Shown one piece after another: positions 4,099 to 14,443 of a stretch of 41,029 bases of DNA. The notes beneath the pieces are model-generated. The model was not told the origin of the DNA. It ran no database searches and was given only the letters and a program-made list of their open reading frames with translations. Position numbers and translations under genes: made by a program. This DNA is from Vampirovibrio sp. (GTDB lineage Bacteria; Cyanobacteriota; Vampirovibrionia; Vampirovibrionales; Vampirovibrionaceae). The stretch spans positions 1-41,029 of the forward strand of contig JAJQJM010000008.1 of NCBI GenBank assembly GCA_021323475.1. Reading direction: 5' to 3'. The stretch's first letter is position 1, and the number at the start of each line of letters is the position of its first letter.

Positions 4099-5790
4099 TT
4101 GAGTGAACGGATGAATGAAATGACTGGCAGCCATTGGAAAAAAATAGGGATCGTTTCGAGTGTTCTTCTTTTGGTCGGGTTATTGGCCGTGATGTATGCG
4201 CCATTAATCGATTCCCAGGTGCTTGGGTTTTTGCACGATGATGGCGTATACGCCATTGTCGCCAACGCTCTTGCTGCGGGAAAAGGCTTTACCCTGCCGC
4301 ATGTGCCGGGTAGTCTGGCGCAAATAAAATACCCGATTGTTTATCCGTTGTTGTTGGCATTGGGCTGGCTGCTCAATCCGGTATTCCCGGCTAATCTCCC
4401 AGTCCTGCATTGGCTGACCACCGGTATCGGTATTGCGGGGATTGGAGTGCTGGCTTGGTACTTACGGGCTGTAAAGGCTTGTAGCGTGATCATTTCCGTT
4501 TTAATTGCCATTTTGGTCGCGTTTAATTTCTTTTTCTTGTTCTATGCCACCTCGTTGATGTCCGAAGCGCCTTATTTTTTGCTTTCATTATTAACGGTTT
4601 TCGTGGCGGAAAAATATCTCCAGAAACCGTCCCGCAAATGGCTGGTTGTTACAGTGGCGCTATCGGCGCTGGCGTTTCATGTTCGCACCATTGGGTTTGT
4701 TTTGGTTGGCGCCATTTGGCTTTTTTTAATTCTGCAAAAACGGTGGAAGGAATCTGCGCTTTACCTTCTGGGAGCCTTGGCTTGCACGGTACTGCCCTGG
4801 GGGCTTTGGGTGAAAGGTCACCTGCCGGCTCCGGATGCGTTTAATTATCCACTGGTCTATGTTTATGGTGGTTATGCCCCGGAGTACGCAATTAATGCCC
4901 CTCATGATCCGATAATATTCATGCAGGCTGTAGTGGAAAAAGGCATATTGCCGCTGTTTGACGCAGCCCTGTTATTGATGTTTCCCCTGCTGACCAATCA
5001 ATTCGGCAGTGTTCCAATGCTGCTAACGTTCCTGGGATTCATAGGTGCGGCCCTGTTATTGGCGAAGGGTTTGTTTCATCTCAGAATCAGGCAATTCAGC
5101 GTATCAGGCCTTTATGTCACGTTCTATTTAATGGTTACCGCAGGGTGGCTGTATCCGGGGCAGGCTGCCCGGTTTTTGCTGATGATCCTGCCCTGGTTAT
5201 GGCTGTATTTTTTTCAGTTCATGCAAAATGGTTGTGTCAATACTTCGCGGTTTAAAATGCGAATGAAACAAGCCCTGCTGATCGTTTTTGTGGCGTTTGT
5301 TACGATCTGGCCATCGGTTCAAGGCTATCAACTCCTGCATCGCATGCGAGCCAATCATTGGCTGGAACCCTCCGGCCAAGCGGCTTCTCTGTGGCCGGAT
5401 TATCAGGCCGCGTTCGAGTTTATCCGCGCGAAAACAAATTCGAATGACAGGGTTGCCGGCATCTGGGATCCGGCTGTGTATCTGTATACCCAACGACCTT
5501 CATTCGGGCTGTTTACATCGGCGTTGCAACCGGTGAAAGGTCAAATCACGGCTGAGTCCGTCAATCGGCTATTTAACAGTTTAAGGCACTATGGGGTGGA
5601 CTATGTGCTGGATGAGCCGTTTTTGCTGAATCAGGAACTCAAGGCTCCGCATAATCCGGTTGTCGAGGTATTAAAAAGCCAATACCCCAAAGCGTTTCAG
5701 CCGGTCTATCAGTCGCCGCACCAGTGGATTACCGTTTATAAGCTCACGGATAAATCGCTGGCACCTACGCGCGGTTCACTACGTGAATGA
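4099..5790 (+). CDS. Membrane glycosyltransferase, GT-C/PMT-like
   Basis: A 563-residue polytopic membrane protein with about ten hydrophobic segments and a soluble C-terminal tail of about 130 residues. HDDGVYAIVANALAAGKG after the first membrane span, followed by KYPIVYPLLLALG, matches the acidic first extracytoplasmic loop of PMT/ArnT-like glycosyltransferases that use polyprenyl-phosphate sugars. It probably glycosylates a lipid or exported protein; the substrate is unknown. The start is uncertain: TTG 4099, ATG 4111 or ATG 4120, none with a strong ribosome site. Its 3' end overlaps the convergent prephenate dehydratase gene by 26 bases. Confidence 0.75.
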   Translation: MSERMNEMTGSHWKKIGIVSSVLLLVGLLAVMYAPLIDSQVLGFLHDDGVYAIVANALAAGKGFTLPHVPGSLAQIKYPIVYPLLLALGWLLNPVFPANLPVLHWLTTGIGIAGIGVLAWYLRAVKACSVIISVLIAILVAFNFFFLFYATSLMSEAPYFLLSLLTVFVAEKYLQKPSRKWLVVTVALSALAFHVRTIGFVLVGAIWLFLILQKRWKESALYLLGALACTVLPWGLWVKGHLPAPDAFNYPLVYVYGGYAPEYAINAPHDPIIFMQAVVEKGILPLFDAALLLMFPLLTNQFGSVPMLLTFLGFIGAALLLAKGLFHLRIRQFSVSGLYVTFYLMVTAGWLYPGQAARFLLMILPWLWLYFFQFMQNGCVNTSRFKMRMKQALLIVFVAFVTIWPSVQGYQLLHRMRANHWLEPSGQAASLWPDYQAAFEFIRAKTNSNDRVAGIWDPAVYLYTQRPSFGLFTSALQPVKGQITAESVNRLFNSLRHYGVDYVLDEPFLLNQELKAPHNPVVEVLKSQYPKAFQPVYQSPHQWITVYKLTDKSLAPTRGSLRE

Positions 5791-6412
5791 AGCGGGTGTA
5801 GTTCTGCTCGGCGTCCTGTAAATTATCTTCAATAATTTGCAGGCCATAAATATCGGCCAGCACTTTGCTGCCCATAACCGCCGTATTGTCCGATAATTTG
5901 TGAGTCGCCAAGGCTTCCGCCGTTTTGGCGTTGTCCACCCATTCGCCTTCCCCGGAGGTCTGTTTGAAATGGGGATATTTATTTTTCAGATTGGTTTTGC
6001 ATTGGGCTAAAACTTGAGGGTGGCACATAATGGTGTCGATTTTGGAAAAATCCTGATCGGGCCGAATCATCAACGCATGCGCAATTTTAATCTCGAATTC
6101 TTCCACAATCTCAACCGGGGCATGCTCCAGTGCGGTAGTGGTTTCTTCCACGTAGCCGCCTACGGAATTATAAATCGCGCATTGCCCACGGTCGATTTCG
6201 CCTTGCTGGAGGGCTTGCATGACGTTGTCGGACGTATAGAGATATTTAATGTCGTAATCGGTAATGCCTTTATTTTTCAGGTAGAAATTGACGGCTTCTT
6301 CATTAAAGCTGCCTTGGCCACCTTGAATGCCGATGATTAATGTGGATGTTGCGTTGGAAGAGAGGGTTTGGGAAGGTTGAGCGGTACGGATGGAATAGTC
6401 GGGTTCGGTCAT
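5765..6412 (-). CDS. pheA: Prephenate dehydratase, catalytic domain only
   Basis: This 215-residue protein converts prephenate to phenylpyruvate on the phenylalanine branch. It has the N-terminal GIQGGQGSFNEEA (about 28-40), the central CHPQVLAQC and the catalytic TRF triplet at 206-208, all typical of the dehydratase domain. The protein ends just after TRF, so the usual C-terminal ACT domain for phenylalanine feedback is missing. Its ATG overlaps the stop of the chorismate mutase gene (ATGA). It is the last gene of the five-gene aromatic operon, and the attenuator ahead of that operon may replace the missing allosteric control. Confidence 0.85.
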   Translation of the reverse strand: MTEPDYSIRTAQPSQTLSSNATSTLIIGIQGGQGSFNEEAVNFYLKNKGITDYDIKYLYTSDNVMQALQQGEIDRGQCAIYNSVGGYVEETTTALEHAPVEIVEEFEIKIAHALMIRPDQDFSKIDTIMCHPQVLAQCKTNLKNKYPHFKQTSGEGEWVDNAKTAEALATHKLSDNTAVMGSKVLADIYGLQIIEDNLQDAEQNYTRFIHVVNRA

Positions 6413-6759
6413 GAATGCGGCTCGCTATTGCTTTCTAAATGTAAACTGTACTCGTGAATTAAATGATACAAAGTTTCCACGAATTCGGGACAGATTCCCA
6501 GCGTTTCGGCGCGGGCAATATTGGTTTGCAGAACCTGCTGCCAACGTGTGCTGTCCAGGGGTTCCAGCCCGCGGGATTTTTTGTATTTCCCGATTTGATC
6601 CACCAATTGAGCCCGTTTAGCCAACGTTTCCAGCAACGTCGCGTCCAGCGCGTCAATCTGCTCGCGGAGGGCTTTCAGTTCATTCGCCTGTTGTTCTTTG
6701 TGCCGATTGTCGTTTTTTCTCATAGTCAGCATTTCAGTTATCCGCATTTCATTCATCAT
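6409..6759 (-). CDS. Chorismate mutase, AroQ type
   Basis: A 116-residue, all-helical AroQ-class chorismate mutase (chorismate to prephenate). The core runs from about residue 30: LREQIDALDATLLETLAKR gives the two arginines (R32, R49) seen in the family, followed by KYKKSRGL and LDSTRWQQVL. The residue after R72 is Trp where the E. coli enzyme has its catalytic Glu, and the Gln of the last helix appears replaced by Glu; this alignment is by eye. The start is uncertain because several ATGs occur in the first 13 codons. It sits 8 bases after aroC and overlaps the prephenate dehydratase gene by four bases, which supports the role. Confidence 0.82.
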   Translation of the reverse strand: MMNEMRITEMLTMRKNDNRHKEQQANELKALREQIDALDATLLETLAKRAQLVDQIGKYKKSRGLEPLDSTRWQQVLQTNIARAETLGICPEFVETLYHLIHEYSLHLESNSEPHS

Positions 6760-6767
6760 AATTGAAT

Positions 6768-7853
6768 TTACCCATTCTGAGCTTTATTGCGTAAATAGTG
6801 ATCCATTAGTACCAGGGCGGCCATGGATTCCACGATGGGTACCGCGCGAGGCAACACACACGGATCATGACGTCCGGTAGCCTCTATGACGGTTTCTTCC
6901 TGGGCCTGGTTCACGGTATTCTGACTTTTGCGAATGGTAGAGGTCGGCTTGACCGCCACTCGGAAATAGATGGTTTCTCCGCTGGAAATACCGCCCAGTA
7001 CACCACCGGCGTTATTGGTGCGGGTGCGTACCTGTTCGCCTTCCGTGTAAAATTCGTCGTTGTGCTGGCTTCCCCGGAGCGCGGAGCCTGCAAAGCCGGA
7101 GCCGATTTCAAACCCTTTGACGGCATTAATGCTCAGCATGGCCTTGCCCAAATCGGCGTGTAATTTATCGAAAACCGGCTCACCCAGGCCAACGGGCGTA
7201 TTTTTAATGACGCCGCGAATCACGCCGCCCACGGAATCACCTTCATCCCGAACGGTTTCGATCAGTTCGATCATTTGGGCGGCTATATCCGCATCCGGGC
7301 AGCGCACAATGTTGCTTTCCACCATGTCGGCGGTGACTTGCTCTGAATCGATTTCGGTGCGAATTGGGCCGACCTGCTCCACAAAGGCCAGGAACTCCAT
7401 GCCCAGTTTTTCCTTCAGGAATTTTTTGGCGATGGCGCCTGCAGCAACCCGACCGATGGTTTCCCGCGCGGAAGAGCGACCGCCGCCGCGCCAGTCGCGG
7501 ATGCCATATTTCTGCTGGAATGTATAATCCGCATGACCGGGCCGATATAGGCTTTTGAGGTTATTGTAGTCTTCCGATTTCACATCCTTGTTATGGGCCA
7601 TCAGCATAATAGGCGTGCCGGTGGTTTTCCCGTCCATCAGGCCGGAGAAGATGTGAATTTCATCCTGCTCGTTGCGGGGGGTGGTAATGGCGCTTTGGCC
7701 GGGGCGACGTCGATCCAGCTCCTTCTGAATCTCTTCCTTGGAGATTTCCAGTCCGGGTGGGCAGCCGTCAACGACTACGCCGACCCCGCCCCCGTGGGAT
7801 TCCCCGAAGGTGGTGATTCTGAAGAGATGTCCGAATGAATTTCCCGCAGTCAT
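6768..7853 (-). CDS. aroC: Chorismate synthase AroC
   Basis: This 361-residue enzyme makes chorismate from EPSP and needs reduced FMN. The signature is unmistakable: [14 protein letters not shown] at the N-terminus, [51 protein letters not shown] and [15 protein letters not shown]. Length matches the family (about 360). It is the third gene of the aromatic operon, 16 bases after the AroA-AroK fusion gene. Confidence 0.97.
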
Positions 7854-7869: not shown

Positions 7870-9759
7870 CTATACTATACACATTTCAGCGTTTTGGGTG
7901 GCCTGGATAATCTCATCCGCCAAGGCTTCCGGTTGTTTATCGTCCGTGGAAAGCCGAACGCAGGCATGTTGCCTGTACAACGGCTGACGCAATTCATACA
8001 AATCCGCGGCCGCCGCTTTATCTTGCAACAGAGGGCGATCCTGGTTTCCATTCAGACGCTCCAGCACGGTCTCCAGTTCCGCTTCCAAAAACACGACAGT
8101 TGCGTTTTGGCGAATGCAATCCATGGCGATTGGATTCATGACAATGCCGCCACCAGTGGAAATAACCGCGTTGCGAACCTGTTGAAGCGATTTTGCGATT
8201 TCCAGTTCCAGTGCCCGAAACCGGGGCTCACCGTCCTGTTCGAAAATCTCGTTAATGCTGCTGCGCCCAGAGCGCTGAACGATTAATTCGTCCATTTCAA
8301 TGCAAATCAGGTCCAGCTTGTTAGCGAGCAAGGCGGCGACGGTCGTTTTACCCGCGCCCATGAAGCCGGTCAATACCAGCTTCCGCCCTTCCGCTGACTG
8401 TTCGGGATGATTGACAGAATCGGCCGAGTGGTACTCAACCCCAACGCCCAATTGCTGTAAATCCTGCCAGAATTCCGGGTAGGTTTTATTCACCACGGCC
8501 GGATCTTCATAACTCATGCCGGGCAGCAAGGTGCCTGCCAGGGCAAAGGCCATCGCCATCCGGTGATCGCCGTAAGTCGCGATTGTTGCTGCTTGCGGAT
8601 TACCGCCATGAATTACCAGTGCATCGGCTTCCGCTTCAGTGCGAATGCCCATTTTTGCCAGTTCCTGCTCAACGGCGGCAATGCGATCGGTTTCTTTCAC
8701 CCGCAGGGATTGCAGACCGTCGATTCGCGTGGTTCCCTTGGCGAACGCAGCCAGAACGGCCAGCGTCTGGGCTTGATCCGGGCAGTCACGCATATCCACA
8801 TGCAAGGGTTCAACCCCAACGCCGTGGATGGTTAATTGGTTGCCGTGGTATTCAACCCGATTGCCCATTTGCTGCACGATGTCCACAAAGCGCATGTCGG
8901 CCTGGACGGACTTCGGGTTGATGTTGCCAAGCGTGATGGTGGAATTGGTCAGCGCCGCAATGGCCACAAAATAGGCCATGCTGGACGCATCCGGCTCCAC
9001 AATGTATTGTGCGCACCGGTACTGCTGCCCGGTTCGGATGACAAAACGCCGGTAATCCTCGTTGACCACGGTCACATCGAAGGCTTCCATAATGGAGCCG
9101 GTCATGTCCAGGTATGGCTTGGAAACCGGCTCGCCGGGCAGTTCAATGGTCACTGCATCGCCTTGGGTTTGAATGAGTGGTCCAATCATCATCAGCGCGG
9201 AAATATACTGGCTGCTGGTGCTGCCGGATACGGTAATCACGTCCGCCTCAATCCGGTTGGAAGACACCCGTACCGGCGGATAGCCGTCTTTTTCCAGGTA
9301 TTCGATGGACGCGCCCAACGCTCGCAAGCTGTCTACCAAATCCCGTACCGGACGATTATTCAGACCTTCCTTGCCCAGCAACACCTGCCGTCCGGGAATC
9401 ACCGCCGACAGCGCGACCAGAAACCGTAAGGTGGCGGCGGACAAATCGGCGTTCAGCGTGTAGTCCCGATCCTGAATATCATCCAGGCTTCCGTGAACTT
9501 CCACACACTGTTGGCCTGCTTTGTCCGTTGTCAGTGCCGTCTGGATGCCCAGGGCGTTCAGGCATTCCAGAATGGCTTTGGTATCATCGCTGAATAGGGG
9601 GTTAATCACCTTCACCGGCTGGTTTGCCGTCTTGGGAGTGAGCGCTGCCAGCAACAAAGCTCGAATGGTGTAGCTTTTAGAGCCCGGAACCGTGACCTCG
9701 GCGGTCACTGGTGCATTTAAGGGTTGCAAGCTGACAGTATTTTGGCCGGTGGATTTCAT
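7870..9759 (-). CDS. aroA-aroK: EPSP synthase - shikimate kinase fusion (AroA-AroK)
   Basis: A 629-residue two-domain enzyme. Residues 1 to about 440 are EPSP synthase (AroA): PGSKSYTIRALLLAAL, LNNRPVRDLVDSLRALG, GSTSSQYISALMM, DASSMAYFVAIAAL, LRVKETDRIAAV and GDHRMAMAFALAG. From about 460 to the end is shikimate kinase (AroK): Walker A GFMGAGKTT, MDELI, EPRFRALE, STGGGIV and NQDRPLL. It covers shikimate to shikimate-3-phosphate to EPSP, missing no obvious key residue. In the pathway the kinase acts first although it is C-terminal here. The ATG overlaps the stop of the DAHP synthase gene (ATGA). AroA-AroK is an uncommon pairing; fungal AROM has both domains, but with others. Confidence 0.95.
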   Translation of the reverse strand: MKSTGQNTVSLQPLNAPVTAEVTVPGSKSYTIRALLLAALTPKTANQPVKVINPLFSDDTKAILECLNALGIQTALTTDKAGQQCVEVHGSLDDIQDRDYTLNADLSAATLRFLVALSAVIPGRQVLLGKEGLNNRPVRDLVDSLRALGASIEYLEKDGYPPVRVSSNRIEADVITVSGSTSSQYISALMMIGPLIQTQGDAVTIELPGEPVSKPYLDMTGSIMEAFDVTVVNEDYRRFVIRTGQQYRCAQYIVEPDASSMAYFVAIAALTNSTITLGNINPKSVQADMRFVDIVQQMGNRVEYHGNQLTIHGVGVEPLHVDMRDCPDQAQTLAVLAAFAKGTTRIDGLQSLRVKETDRIAAVEQELAKMGIRTEAEADALVIHGGNPQAATIATYGDHRMAMAFALAGTLLPGMSYEDPAVVNKTYPEFWQDLQQLGVGVEYHSADSVNHPEQSAEGRKLVLTGFMGAGKTTVAALLANKLDLICIEMDELIVQRSGRSSINEIFEQDGEPRFRALELEIAKSLQQVRNAVISTGGGIVMNPIAMDCIRQNATVVFLEAELETVLERLNGNQDRPLLQDKAAAADLYELRQPLYRQHACVRLSTDDKQPEALADEIIQATQNAEMCIV

Positions 9760-10574
9760 GCCAGAACAGCTTTCTTCTCAATCACGCGACCGGCTTGCAG
9801 CTTCCCCAGCATGGTGTCCAGTTGATCCCAGGTGATTTGCTGTTTGGCGTCGGTCCAGGCGAAGCGCGGGTTGGGATGCACTTCGATGACCATGCCATCG
9901 TAGTTGAACTCGGCACCATCCATTGCCACTTCGTCCAGTTTGTCCACTGCGCCCGCAATGTGGGAAATATCCAGTAGCATGGTCAGGTTGGTTTTTTCCT
10001 TGATGCGCATGGCCATTTCGTTGTCGGCTACATTGCGCAGGCCGCTGGGATTCGGGTGGTGCACATCCGGGGTGAAGCCGCGGTGGCAGAGAATCAGGTT
10101 TTCGGCAGCCATGCCGCCTTCCAGCGCATGGTCTACAATGCCTTCCCAGTGAGATTCGGAGTGCCACGGCTGGTTCTTCAGCATCAGGTGAACGCGGGAA
10201 TCCTGGGCGGCCACCCGCGCGATTTCCTGTTGGACGTAGTGGTTCTGGTTCCGGGCGCCAATCCACAGCAACAGTTTGCCGTCAGCGCCCAGGGAGGGCA
10301 GTACGCCGTCCATAACAGACTGGGCCTGGGAAGGCACCAGAATTTCGGTGCCGGGGTTTACGCCCATTTGGGCTGCTTCCGCCAGCAGGGAGATACCCTC
10401 TTCTTTCAGGCCGTCGAAGCCGGGCTTGGTGCGGGGCTTCCACAGGCTGATGCGGACGAAATCCACGTTGCGGGCCTTGGCCTGCTCAATGGAGAACATA
10501 ATCTGCTCGCGGCCTTCGGCGGAGCAGGGGCCCGCTACTAACATCGGTTTTTGATTTACTTTTGCTTGGTTCAT
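9756..10574 (-). CDS. 3-deoxy-7-phosphoheptulonate (DAHP) synthase
   Basis: A 272-residue class I DAHP synthase of the short, KDO8P-synthase-like type, the first step of the shikimate pathway (PEP plus erythrose-4-phosphate). Visible are LVAGPCSAEG, SLWKPRTKPGFDG, WIGARNQ, LILCHRGF, LLDISHIAG and a C-terminal VIEVHPNP. No ACT domain and no fused chorismate mutase are present, although in related Bacteroidetes-type proteins a mutase is fused. Assignment as DAHP rather than KDO8P synthase rests on the operon (aroA-aroK, aroC, mutase, dehydratase). ATG 10574 is preceded by AAAGGAG. It is the first structural gene behind the Phe/Tyr leader and attenuator. Confidence 0.9.
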   Translation of the reverse strand: MNQAKVNQKPMLVAGPCSAEGREQIMFSIEQAKARNVDFVRISLWKPRTKPGFDGLKEEGISLLAEAAQMGVNPGTEILVPSQAQSVMDGVLPSLGADGKLLLWIGARNQNHYVQQEIARVAAQDSRVHLMLKNQPWHSESHWEGIVDHALEGGMAAENLILCHRGFTPDVHHPNPSGLRNVADNEMAMRIKEKTNLTMLLDISHIAGAVDKLDEVAMDGAEFNYDGMVIEVHPNPRFAWTDAKQQITWDQLDTMLGKLQAGRVIEKKAVLA

Positions 10575-10614
10575 TGGTGATGACTCCTTTATCCTATTGT
10601 CTAACAGCTTATAA

Positions 10615-10648
10615 ACGAAAACAGCTCCCGTTTGTGCGGGAGCTGTTT
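10615..10648 (-). terminator. Attenuator terminator hairpin in leader of aromatic operon
   Basis: On the minus strand AAACAGCTCCCG (10648-10637) pairs with CGGGAGCTGTTT (10630-10619), a 12-bp perfect stem with a 6-base loop, then TTTTCGTTTAT. It lies between the leader peptide stop and the DAHP synthase ATG. The 5' arm can instead pair with a segment of the leader: GGGAG (10695-10691) with CTCCC (10642-10638), and GTTTGTT (10688-10682) with AACAAAC (10651-10645), around a 2x2 internal loop. That is an antiterminator that excludes the terminator. Confidence 0.88.
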
Positions 10649-10679
10649 GTTCGGTAAATCTTTTTTTAGCCTTTACACG

Positions 10680-10751
10680 TCAACAAACGTCTCCCTGACG
10701 GAAGCCGTAAAAATAAAAGAAATAAAAGCTTTGTTGTGGACGTGTATTCAT
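10680..10751 (-). CDS. Phe/Tyr-rich leader peptide of the aromatic attenuator
   Basis: A 23-codon ORF, too short for ordinary gene callers. It begins MNTRPQQS and continues FYFFYFYGF, so eight of nine successive codons (10727-10701) are Phe (five) or Tyr (three); it ends RQGDVC and TGA. Position (between a TTGACA element and a terminator ahead of DAHP synthase) and codon content match leader peptides of pheA/aro-type attenuators. Stalling at these codons when charged tRNA-Phe or tRNA-Tyr is scarce would cover CAACAAA (10736-10730), which otherwise pairs with TTTGTTG (10687-10681). No strong ribosome site is visible ahead of the ATG. Confidence 0.85.
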   Translation of the reverse strand: MNTRPQQSFYFFYFYGFRQGDVC

Positions 10752-10762
10752 AGTGTTATCAC

Positions 10763-10791
10763 TTTAACCTAAGTACAGGTGCGTTTGTCAA
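10763..10791 (-). promoter_or_regulatory. Candidate promoter of the aromatic operon
   Basis: TTGACA (10791-10786, minus strand) is a perfect -35 box. With a 17-base spacer the -10 would be GTTAAA (10768-10763), only a half match. A start near 10756 would leave a 5' leader of about five bases before the leader peptide ATG. The -35 is convincing; the -10 and start point are inferred. Confidence 0.5.
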
Positions 10792-10821
10792 CTGTTTAGC
10801 TGGCAAACATGTTGAAACGTT

Positions 10822-10840
10822 TACAGTTTGAAATACTGTA
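10822..10840. promoter_or_regulatory. Small inverted repeat in divergent aro / MAF promoter region
   Basis: TACAGT, seven bases, ACTGTA is a short perfect inverted repeat midway between the divergent aromatic operon and glycosyltransferase gene. It sits about 30 bases upstream of the aro -35 box. It could be an operator for a dimeric regulator; no known box is recognised and a repeat this short can occur by chance. Confidence 0.2.
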
Positions 10841-11039
10841 GTGAATACACTAACAGTTTTTTGTGGGGCTGTCCATGAGTTATGGCAAAGATATGGCTGA
10901 GGCTATATAAGCGCCGGTTTTGAGGATTCTATCAATTCCTTCACCTTAATTTAATTGCGTTCTACACCGCTTAAGGGAGGGTTTTTGCTCTGTAATCGGC
11001 CAGAATGGAAATATATCCTCAATCGGGAAAGGCGTGGAC

Positions 11040-13975: not shown

Positions 13976-14443
13976 CTATTGTGCGAATGCGCACTCGGCG
14001 GCTTTGGCCATTTCTTCAGGGCTGACCTGTTTGACGCAGGTGGCAATGGACCAGTGGTGGCCGAATGGGTCTACCAGCTTGCCGTAACGATCGCCCCAGA
14101 ACATTTCCTGCACCGGCATCACGATGCTGGCGCCTGCGAATACGGCGCGCTCGAATGCGGCATCCGCATCTTCCACGTACATGTGGATAGTGACCGGGCT
14201 ATTGCCAAGGGCGGTGGGGGCAAAGCCGCCGTAATCACGGCATTCGCCAGCCAGCATGATGTGGGAGTCGCCGATTTTCATGCTGGCATGCATAACCTTG
14301 CCATCCGGGGTCGTTAAGCAAGCTAATTCAGTCGCGCCGAATGCGCGCTTGTAGAATTCAATGGCCGCCTTGGGATCGTATACGATCAGATGGGGGGTAA
14401 TGGTATGCATGTCCGGCGGAATTGGGGGAACTTTCGTGCTCAT
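13976..14443 (-). CDS. VOC-family protein (PhnB/glyoxalase-like)
   Basis: A 155-residue single-domain vicinal-oxygen-chelate protein. TPHLIVYDPKAAIEFYKRAFGA at the start (given here only as its fold-defining pattern: a beta strand, then a helix with AIEFYKRAFGA) and WGDRYGKLVDPFGHHWSIA at the end are typical of the PhnB/YjdN-like group. These are often annotated glyoxalase or bleomycin-resistance related, but real substrates are mostly unknown. Start ATG 14443 follows GAAGGAAGACCC; an upstream ATG at 14467 has no better site. The gene is preceded by a short hypothetical gene on the same strand. Confidence 0.85.
   Translation of the reverse strand: MSTKVPPIPPDMHTITPHLIVYDPKAAIEFYKRAFGATELACLTTPDGKVMHASMKIGDSHIMLAGECRDYGGFAPTALGNSPVTIHMYVEDADAAFERAVFAGASIVMPVQEMFWGDRYGKLVDPFGHHWSIATCVKQVSPEEMAKAAECAFAQ

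Follow-up and report, generated by a model that had tools for sequence, protein, structure and literature searches.

A predicted ribosome-mediated attenuator ahead of a five-gene aromatic operon in Vampirovibrio

Introduction

What sets the expression of an aromatic amino acid operon whose first gene is preceded by a short, Phe- and Tyr-rich open reading frame (ORF) and a hairpin? The question is raised by a 41,029-nt stretch of DNA, called the window here, from a genome that groups with Vampirovibrio, a non-photosynthetic member of the Cyanobacteriota. By genome search, it belongs to the same genus as genomes G305 and G307. An earlier note, made from the letters alone, interpreted the arrangement as a ribosome-dependent attenuator. 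Here, we describe the operon, the leader, and its relatives, and we weigh that interpretation against its rivals.

The operon

Five genes lie behind the leader:

5765..6412, minus strand: prephenate dehydratase, ACT domain not found (PF00800 only)
6409..6759, minus strand: chorismate mutase (PF01817)
6768..7853, minus strand: chorismate synthase (PF01264; TIGR00033 over cut-off)
7870..9759, minus strand: EPSP synthase–shikimate kinase fusion (PF00275 and PF01202)
9756..10574, minus strand: DAHP synthase, 272 aa, its catalytic domain the only one found (Pfam PF00793 only)

The operon makes the amino acids that the leader would sense, running from DAHP synthase to prephenate dehydratase, with some pathway steps elsewhere. 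The earlier note had called it the whole DAHP-to-phenylpyruvate operon. Five aromatic genes are indeed present, but the set is incomplete: aroB, dehydroquinase, and aroE have no match among the five. V. chlorellavorus possesses ORFs of comparable size in the same order. The longer DAHP synthase of a relative (L048) carries a ferredoxin-like domain, PF18152. Such domains, like ACT domains, serve feedback inhibition, and an operon in which neither was found would fit transcriptional control. Upstream, the neighboring gene is divergent and no minus-strand ORF of at least 100 aa lies between the promoter and position 13,976. Thus, the hairpin is not another gene's end.

The leader

The elements ahead of the operon, in the order in which they would be transcribed, are as follows:

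10786..10791, minus strand: -35 hexamer TTGACA, also TTGACA in L034, L035, and L036
10761..10766, minus strand: probable -10 hexamer TAAAGT, after a 19-nt spacer, ending 9 nt before the leader ATG; spacing and distance the same in three relatives
10680..10751, minus strand: leader ORF, 23 codons plus stop, MNTRPQQSFYFFYFYGFRQGDVC (by translation; similar leaders in relatives)
10730..10745, minus strand: region 1, ACACGTC (10745-10739) and CAACAAA (10736-10730), which could pair with 10687-10675 (statistically weak)
10701..10727, minus strand: putative control codons, eight of nine Phe or Tyr (from the sequence and shuffles)
10682..10695, minus strand: region 2, GGGAG (10695-10691) and GTTTGTT (10688-10682) (from the sequence, folding, and pairing tests)
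10638..10651, minus strand: region 3, AACAAAC (10651-10645) and CTCCC (10642-10638), common to the antiterminator and the terminator (folding and pairing tests)
10619..10648, minus strand: predicted intrinsic terminator with a 12-bp stem, a loop of 6 nt, and a T-rich tail (terminator scan and folding)

Direct reading of the minus strand confirmed, base for base, the TTGACA, the leader ORF, the control codons, and every coordinate listed in the earlier note. Region 2 overlaps the leader stop codon (10682-10680) by a single base, at 10682. The terminator stem joins 10648-10637 to 10630-10619 in 12 pairs, 7 of them G-C, and it sits between the leader and the first gene, as it does in leader-bearing relatives. 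About 105 nt separate the leader stop from the DAHP synthase start. An ORF with at least seven Phe or Tyr codons in nine appeared in none of 5,000 dinucleotide shuffles of 10450-10900, and the looser combination of five aromatic codons in nine plus a terminator appeared in 1 of 5,000.

The -10 spacing and the distance to the ATG are identical in L034, L035, and L036, the three other Vampirovibrio-genus sequences examined. A standard promoter scan, which allows spacers of 16-18 nt, finds no promoter here because the spacing is 19 nt. Across the leaders, the best promoter-like site outscored 95% of shuffles for 18 of the 41, the remaining 23 being no better than shuffles; among the 18, the distance from the end of the -10 box to the start is 7-12 nt in 11 and 15-26 nt in 7. 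With respect to translation, the Shine-Dalgarno energy in the window is -1.7 for the leader, where there is no clear site, and -8.1 for DAHP synthase. At the best in-frame start, an energy of -5 or lower is seen for 2 of the 39 leaders that stand first or alone; the DAHP synthase genes reach it in 24 of 39 cases and the shuffled controls in 4 of 41. The second leaders of two tandem pairs have energies of -5.9 and -10.2. The scarcity of Shine-Dalgarno sequences, together with the promoter positions in part of the leaders, suggests that the first leader may be translated from a leaderless mRNA in some cases, the window included. As a separate observation, in V. chlorellavorus (L031:4565-4696) a 34-nt inverted repeat, 94% complementary, lies directly upstream of the leader promoter.

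Pairing and folding

The stretch 10800-10600 folds at z -5.4, and none of 200 shuffles is equally stable. Taken by itself, the segment from region 2 to region 3 (10700-10637) adopts the antiterminator fold at -20.6 kcal/mol, with z -3.7 and none of 200 shuffles equally stable. When region 4 is included in the folding, the terminator prevails over the antiterminator, and the 2:3 and 3:4 pairings are mutually exclusive in the window.

For 41 leaders, the pairing of region 2 with region 3 was compared with that of 300 shuffles of region 2. The window antiterminator stands at p 0.007. A p of 0.05 or lower was obtained for 8 of 12 Vampirovibrionales leaders, the other 4 missing that value, for 1 of 2 other class members, and in Patescibacteria for 17 of 19 and for 6 of 8. 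In a permutation test on 39 leaders (near-copies L035 and L098 removed, L053 having been dropped before the pairing tests), cognate region 2-region 3 pairs averaged -17.1 kcal/mol versus -10.3 kcal/mol for non-cognate pairs, and 0 of 20,000 permutations did as well. The cognate region 3 was the best partner in its column for 8 of the 39 leaders and among the top three for 21. The terminator starts 15-43 nt past the leader stop in all 39. These statistics, and those on spread below, are overstated because related sequences are not independent.

The 1:2 pairing is another matter. In the window it has p 0.27 for the whole leader and 0.066 for the part ahead of the control codons; within the genus, that part gives p 0.066, 0.034, 0.106, and 0.363. 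Across leaders, 7 of 39 reach p 0.05, with a combined p of 0.011. Of the three nested pairings described in the earlier note, the mutually exclusive 2:3 and 3:4 pairings hold, but the 1:2 pairing, while present, does not rise above chance in the window. Relatives, to which the note had looked for a decision, conserve the Phe/Tyr ORF and retain the 2:3 and 3:4 pairings despite sequence change. The ORF, its codons, the predicted terminator and antiterminator, and their conservation can all be read from the DNA itself.

Leaders ahead of DAHP synthase

The window DAHP synthase is 83% identical to that of Vampirovibrio chlorellavorus NCIMB 11383, 75% identical to that of the MAG Umea1_bin-2013 (labelled V. 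chlorellavorus), and 59% identical to that of a Candidatus Levyibacteriota MAG (Patescibacteria). The named-collection scan that supplied these records detects close relatives only; all three carry a leader.

A scan with fixed criteria was applied to 105 loci, with antisense and shuffle controls and with group assignments read from kinship codes. Specifically, it sought an ORF of 8-50 codons with at least five Phe, Tyr, or Trp codons in nine, and a terminator of at most -7 kcal/mol that begins between -20 and +70 nt relative to the stop. Leader plus terminator occurs at 12 of 18 Vampirovibrionales loci (antisense 1/18, shuffles 23/1,800). Other members of the window's class yield 3 of 20, one judged spurious (antisense 0, shuffles 14/2,000), and the rest of the phylum yields 0 of 29 (antisense 0, shuffles 30/2,900), these being the best 29 of 252 matching genomes. 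In Patescibacteria, the counts are 17 of 19 loci in the class of G309 (antisense 3/19, shuffles 17/1,900) and 8 of 19 in a draw from the phylum (antisense 0, shuffles 1/1,900). The Patescibacteria loci come from 19 of 373 and 17 of 379 genomes matching the query at the cut-offs used, and the counts describe those genomes; L075 and L092, for which a contig edge leaves only 160 nt for the scan, were scored as misses. Leader ORFs with 5 to 8 aromatic codons per nine recur in two phyla. The scan detects no Phe/Tyr leader at 6 of the 18 Vampirovibrionales loci, one of which has a Trp leader instead.

In a later draw from the window's class, leaders were scored at 12 of 27 loci (antisense 1, shuffles 5/1,620), one judged spurious and two repeating earlier loci. 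Here, 27 of 30 loci were taken: L198, L201, and L217 were left out as repeats of L037, L046, and L041, yet L189 and L191, which repeat L054 and L068, were counted. The matches judged spurious, by eye, are L053 in the first scan and L196 in the later draw.

Some loci carry two aromatic leaders in series before one DAHP synthase. Such tandems are present in the Patescibacteria L081, L082, and L086 and in the class members L199, L203, L205, and L208, whose genomes are 4.2-8.5 Mb. The upstream leader of L082 was noticed on reading and failed the terminator scan. One Patescibacteria contig (L033:1839-10731) has, by eye, thrS- and rplT-like genes, then the leader, then DAHP synthase, followed by ORFs that resemble aroB, aroQ, aroA, aroK, aroE, and aroC. 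It also contains a structured stretch (L033:4840-4980, plus strand, same as L071; z -3.4, 1 of 200 shuffles equally stable). GCAGTATGARCCGTG and GGCGAATRCTAAGRTTAGG are common to this stretch, which follows the attenuator, and to L081, where they lie between the two attenuators. L033:4815-4992 has no Rfam match up to E 1, and the stretch is possibly an undescribed RNA or repeat.

Codon specificity

The identity of the predicted control codons follows the pathway of the downstream gene. In all five Vampirovibrio-genus genomes, a WWW leader with a terminator precedes one trpE-like gene (L110, L112-L115); at the second trpE-like matches of the genus (L127-L130, L135), the leader scan found none. 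Across Vampirovibrionales, leaders precede trpE at 6 of the 29 loci scanned, out of 30 (antisense 2, shuffles 83/1,740), a result that is convincing for WWW leaders only. Among the Vampirovibrionales ilvB loci that score above the cut-off for the family, 8 of 11 are preceded by Ile/Leu/Val leaders (shuffles 0/660), compared to 0 of 30 in a photosynthetic class, so read from kinship codes (shuffles 7/1,800). A scan with a looser codon rule and a fixed stretch gave 7 of 15 ilvB loci (antisense 1, shuffles 6/900), the 15 being drawn from 21 by omitting six weak or partial matches. His leaders precede hisG at 2 of 8 loci, in two other genera (shuffles 4/480), and hisG has no match in the five Vampirovibrio-genus genomes searched (G000 and G305-G308, G308 being 76% complete).

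Individual loci offer further observations. In the window genome, a WWW leader stands before a trpE-like gene (G000:C25, L110) and MSFLNNVVIILLVILSGPAGGI stands before ilvB (G000:C27, L171). In G294, a WTWW leader precedes DAHP synthase, with trpE following within about 100 nt. Trp leaders in Patescibacteria were considered and set aside as too weak (2 of 21 trpE loci versus 29/1,260 shuffles). Counted by eye, the aromatic run includes a Trp codon in 17 of the 27 leaders from Patescibacteria versus 2 of the 12 from Vampirovibrionales. The L033 operon behind its leader resembles, with gene names assigned by eye, the general route to chorismate, and the Trp codons of Patescibacteria leaders may reflect such a route downstream.

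History of the DAHP synthase

In a tree of 70 DAHP synthases from two phyla only, with a long-branch warning for L087, L088, and L089, the Vampirovibrio enzymes nest within a clade of 24 rows, the 20 others being Patescibacteria (100/98). The other Vampirovibrionales enzymes form a separate 11-row clade (100/100), and 8 of these 11 have Phe/Tyr leaders by scan. Given that Vampirovibrio lies in the Patescibacteria clade, apart from the leader-bearing Vampirovibrionales clade, its enzyme seems to have been replaced with the control unchanged in kind. The test does not reject a topology in which the Patescibacteria rows form a group apart (p-AU 0.111).

Two further ideas were examined. The leader core shares 15 identical bases with that of the Patescibacteria L074, at the floor p of 0.0033. 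The same floor p is reached by matches to L089, L079, L088, and L039, the last from the window's own order, so the L074 match is no proof of joint transfer of leader and enzyme. The other idea tied leaders to DAHP synthases without an N-terminal domain. Sorted by script, 38 Vampirovibrionales and class loci comprise short enzymes with (12) and without (3) a leader and long ones with (2) and without (21). The two long-frame, leader-bearing loci, L038 and L039, encode short proteins (L038 translated, L039 by eye), which changes the counts to 14/17 versus 0/21. Patescibacteria long-frame loci, for example L096 and L097, do have leaders. The association is a correlation only, which follows the gene tree and fails in Patescibacteria.

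Mechanism and alternatives

We consider it highly probable that the window element is a classical ribosome-mediated transcription attenuator, controlling the five-gene operon. The conserved leader and the 2:3 and 3:4 pairings in relatives support the earlier note in this reading. The notion is that RNA polymerase would start at about 10755 and that a ribosome would begin at the leader AUG, close to the mRNA 5' end or directly at it, without a Shine-Dalgarno sequence. When charged tRNA-Phe and tRNA-Tyr are ample, the ribosome would reach the stop at 10682-10680 and cover region 2, and regions 3 and 4 would form the terminator. When either charged tRNA is scarce, the ribosome would stall on codons 9-15 and leave region 2 free. 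Free region 2 would pair with region 3, no terminator would form, and the five-gene operon would be transcribed. The start site, initiation without a Shine-Dalgarno sequence, stalling, and the response to Phe and Tyr are the steps that we infer.

Could the hairpin be an attenuator whose read-through is set by a protein or a small molecule, the aromatic ORF being incidental? The weakness of the 1:2 pairing would suit such a device, and some aromatic genes have non-ribosomal attenuators, such as TRAP and T-box systems. However, the window contains no Rfam family at cut-off, aromatic-codon ORFs recur in two phyla, and codon identity tracks the pathway. We regard this explanation as quite improbable. 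Less probable still is a translated leader that acts on translation of the first gene, or on elongation that depends on Rho or pausing, in place of intrinsic termination. Precedents exist, and the leader stop does lie about 105 nt from the DAHP synthase start, but a 12-bp terminator with a T-rich tail occupies the interval, the terminator begins 15-43 nt after the stop in 39 leaders, and DAHP synthase carries a Shine-Dalgarno sequence of its own (-8.1).

That a chance ORF happens to adjoin an ordinary terminator is exceedingly improbable. AT-rich DNA is rich in aromatic codons and scan matches do occur in shuffles and antisense, but even the loose criterion is satisfied by only 1 of 5,000 window shuffles, there is no nearby upstream same-strand ORF of at least 100 aa that would need a terminator, and the similar leaders in relatives contradict it.

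Returning to the ribosome-mediated attenuator, we offer a broader proposal tentatively, and would rate it somewhat below an even chance. Leader-peptide attenuation may be a main mode of controlling amino acid genes in Vampirovibrionia and in aromatics-making Patescibacteria, often leaderless and sometimes in tandem, and DAHP synthase with its attenuator may be one module exchanged between Patescibacteria and Vampirovibrio. If so, Patescibacteria would need close transcription-translation coupling. The attenuators themselves would bring a textbook mechanism to two bacterial groups, including the Patescibacteria, which are reduced and mostly uncultured, and the prediction is that ribosomes of these groups closely trail RNA polymerase. 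In uncultured genomes, control codons could provide a readable signal of the amino acid to which an operon responds.

Comparison with known systems

Rfam at cut-off returns nothing for the window and a tRNA only for ten related loci, and the 14 Rfam matches to 10550-10850 with E up to 10 include no T-box. RF01859 (Phe_leader) aligns full-length to the window leader at 34.1 bits (E 2.4e-4) and scores 20.4 bits against the Patescibacteria L074, both short of its cut-off of 55. We take this family to represent the pheA and pheST leader-peptide attenuators of Proteobacteria. Like them, the window has a Phe-rich leader ORF, terminator/antiterminator logic, and aromatic genes downstream. Unlike them, it mixes Phe and Tyr codons, precedes an operon led by DAHP synthase, belongs to a different phylum, has no clear Shine-Dalgarno sequence at the leader, and scores below the RF01859 cut-off. 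Mycobacteria have leaderless short-ORF attenuators, in which the leader ORF lies at or near the mRNA 5' end. By comparison, the leaderless state of the window is a prediction from promoter position and the lacking Shine-Dalgarno sequence.

The earlier note had expected such an attenuator to be new in a non-proteobacterial lineage, which is too wide. Leader-peptide systems are published for Actinobacteria, where the available text of one survey treats trp, trpS, leuS, ilv, and cys leaders (PMC1262725), and for Firmicutes (PMC2965389, as far as its available text goes). For Flavobacterium, the available text reports strong clues for leader-peptide attenuation ahead of amino acid operons, and structured 5' elements that precede pheA and hisG and have no Rfam matches (PMC9723704). 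Our search for attenuation in Melainabacteria, Vampirovibrio, and the Candidate Phyla Radiation, made partly among best-ranked matches and covering few subscription journals, found no report. In the available text of a Patescibacteria perspective (PMC11665869), "attenuation" and "leader peptide" both occur 0 times, and the one paper found to contain both "leader peptide" and "melainabacteria" concerns, as listed, RiPP biosynthesis. The kind of attenuator is known; for Vampirovibrionia and Patescibacteria as its hosts, we found no earlier report.

The Flavobacterium candidates belong to another phylum, and the likeness to them noted here is one of description, drawn from the available text (PMC9723704). 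The Actinobacteria survey differs in that aroF and pheA are absent from its main text, as available (PMC1262725). Finally, as far as the same text describes them, the trp and ilvB attenuators of Actinobacteria share with the window element the classical terminator/antiterminator logic and the use of cognate codons (PMC1262725).
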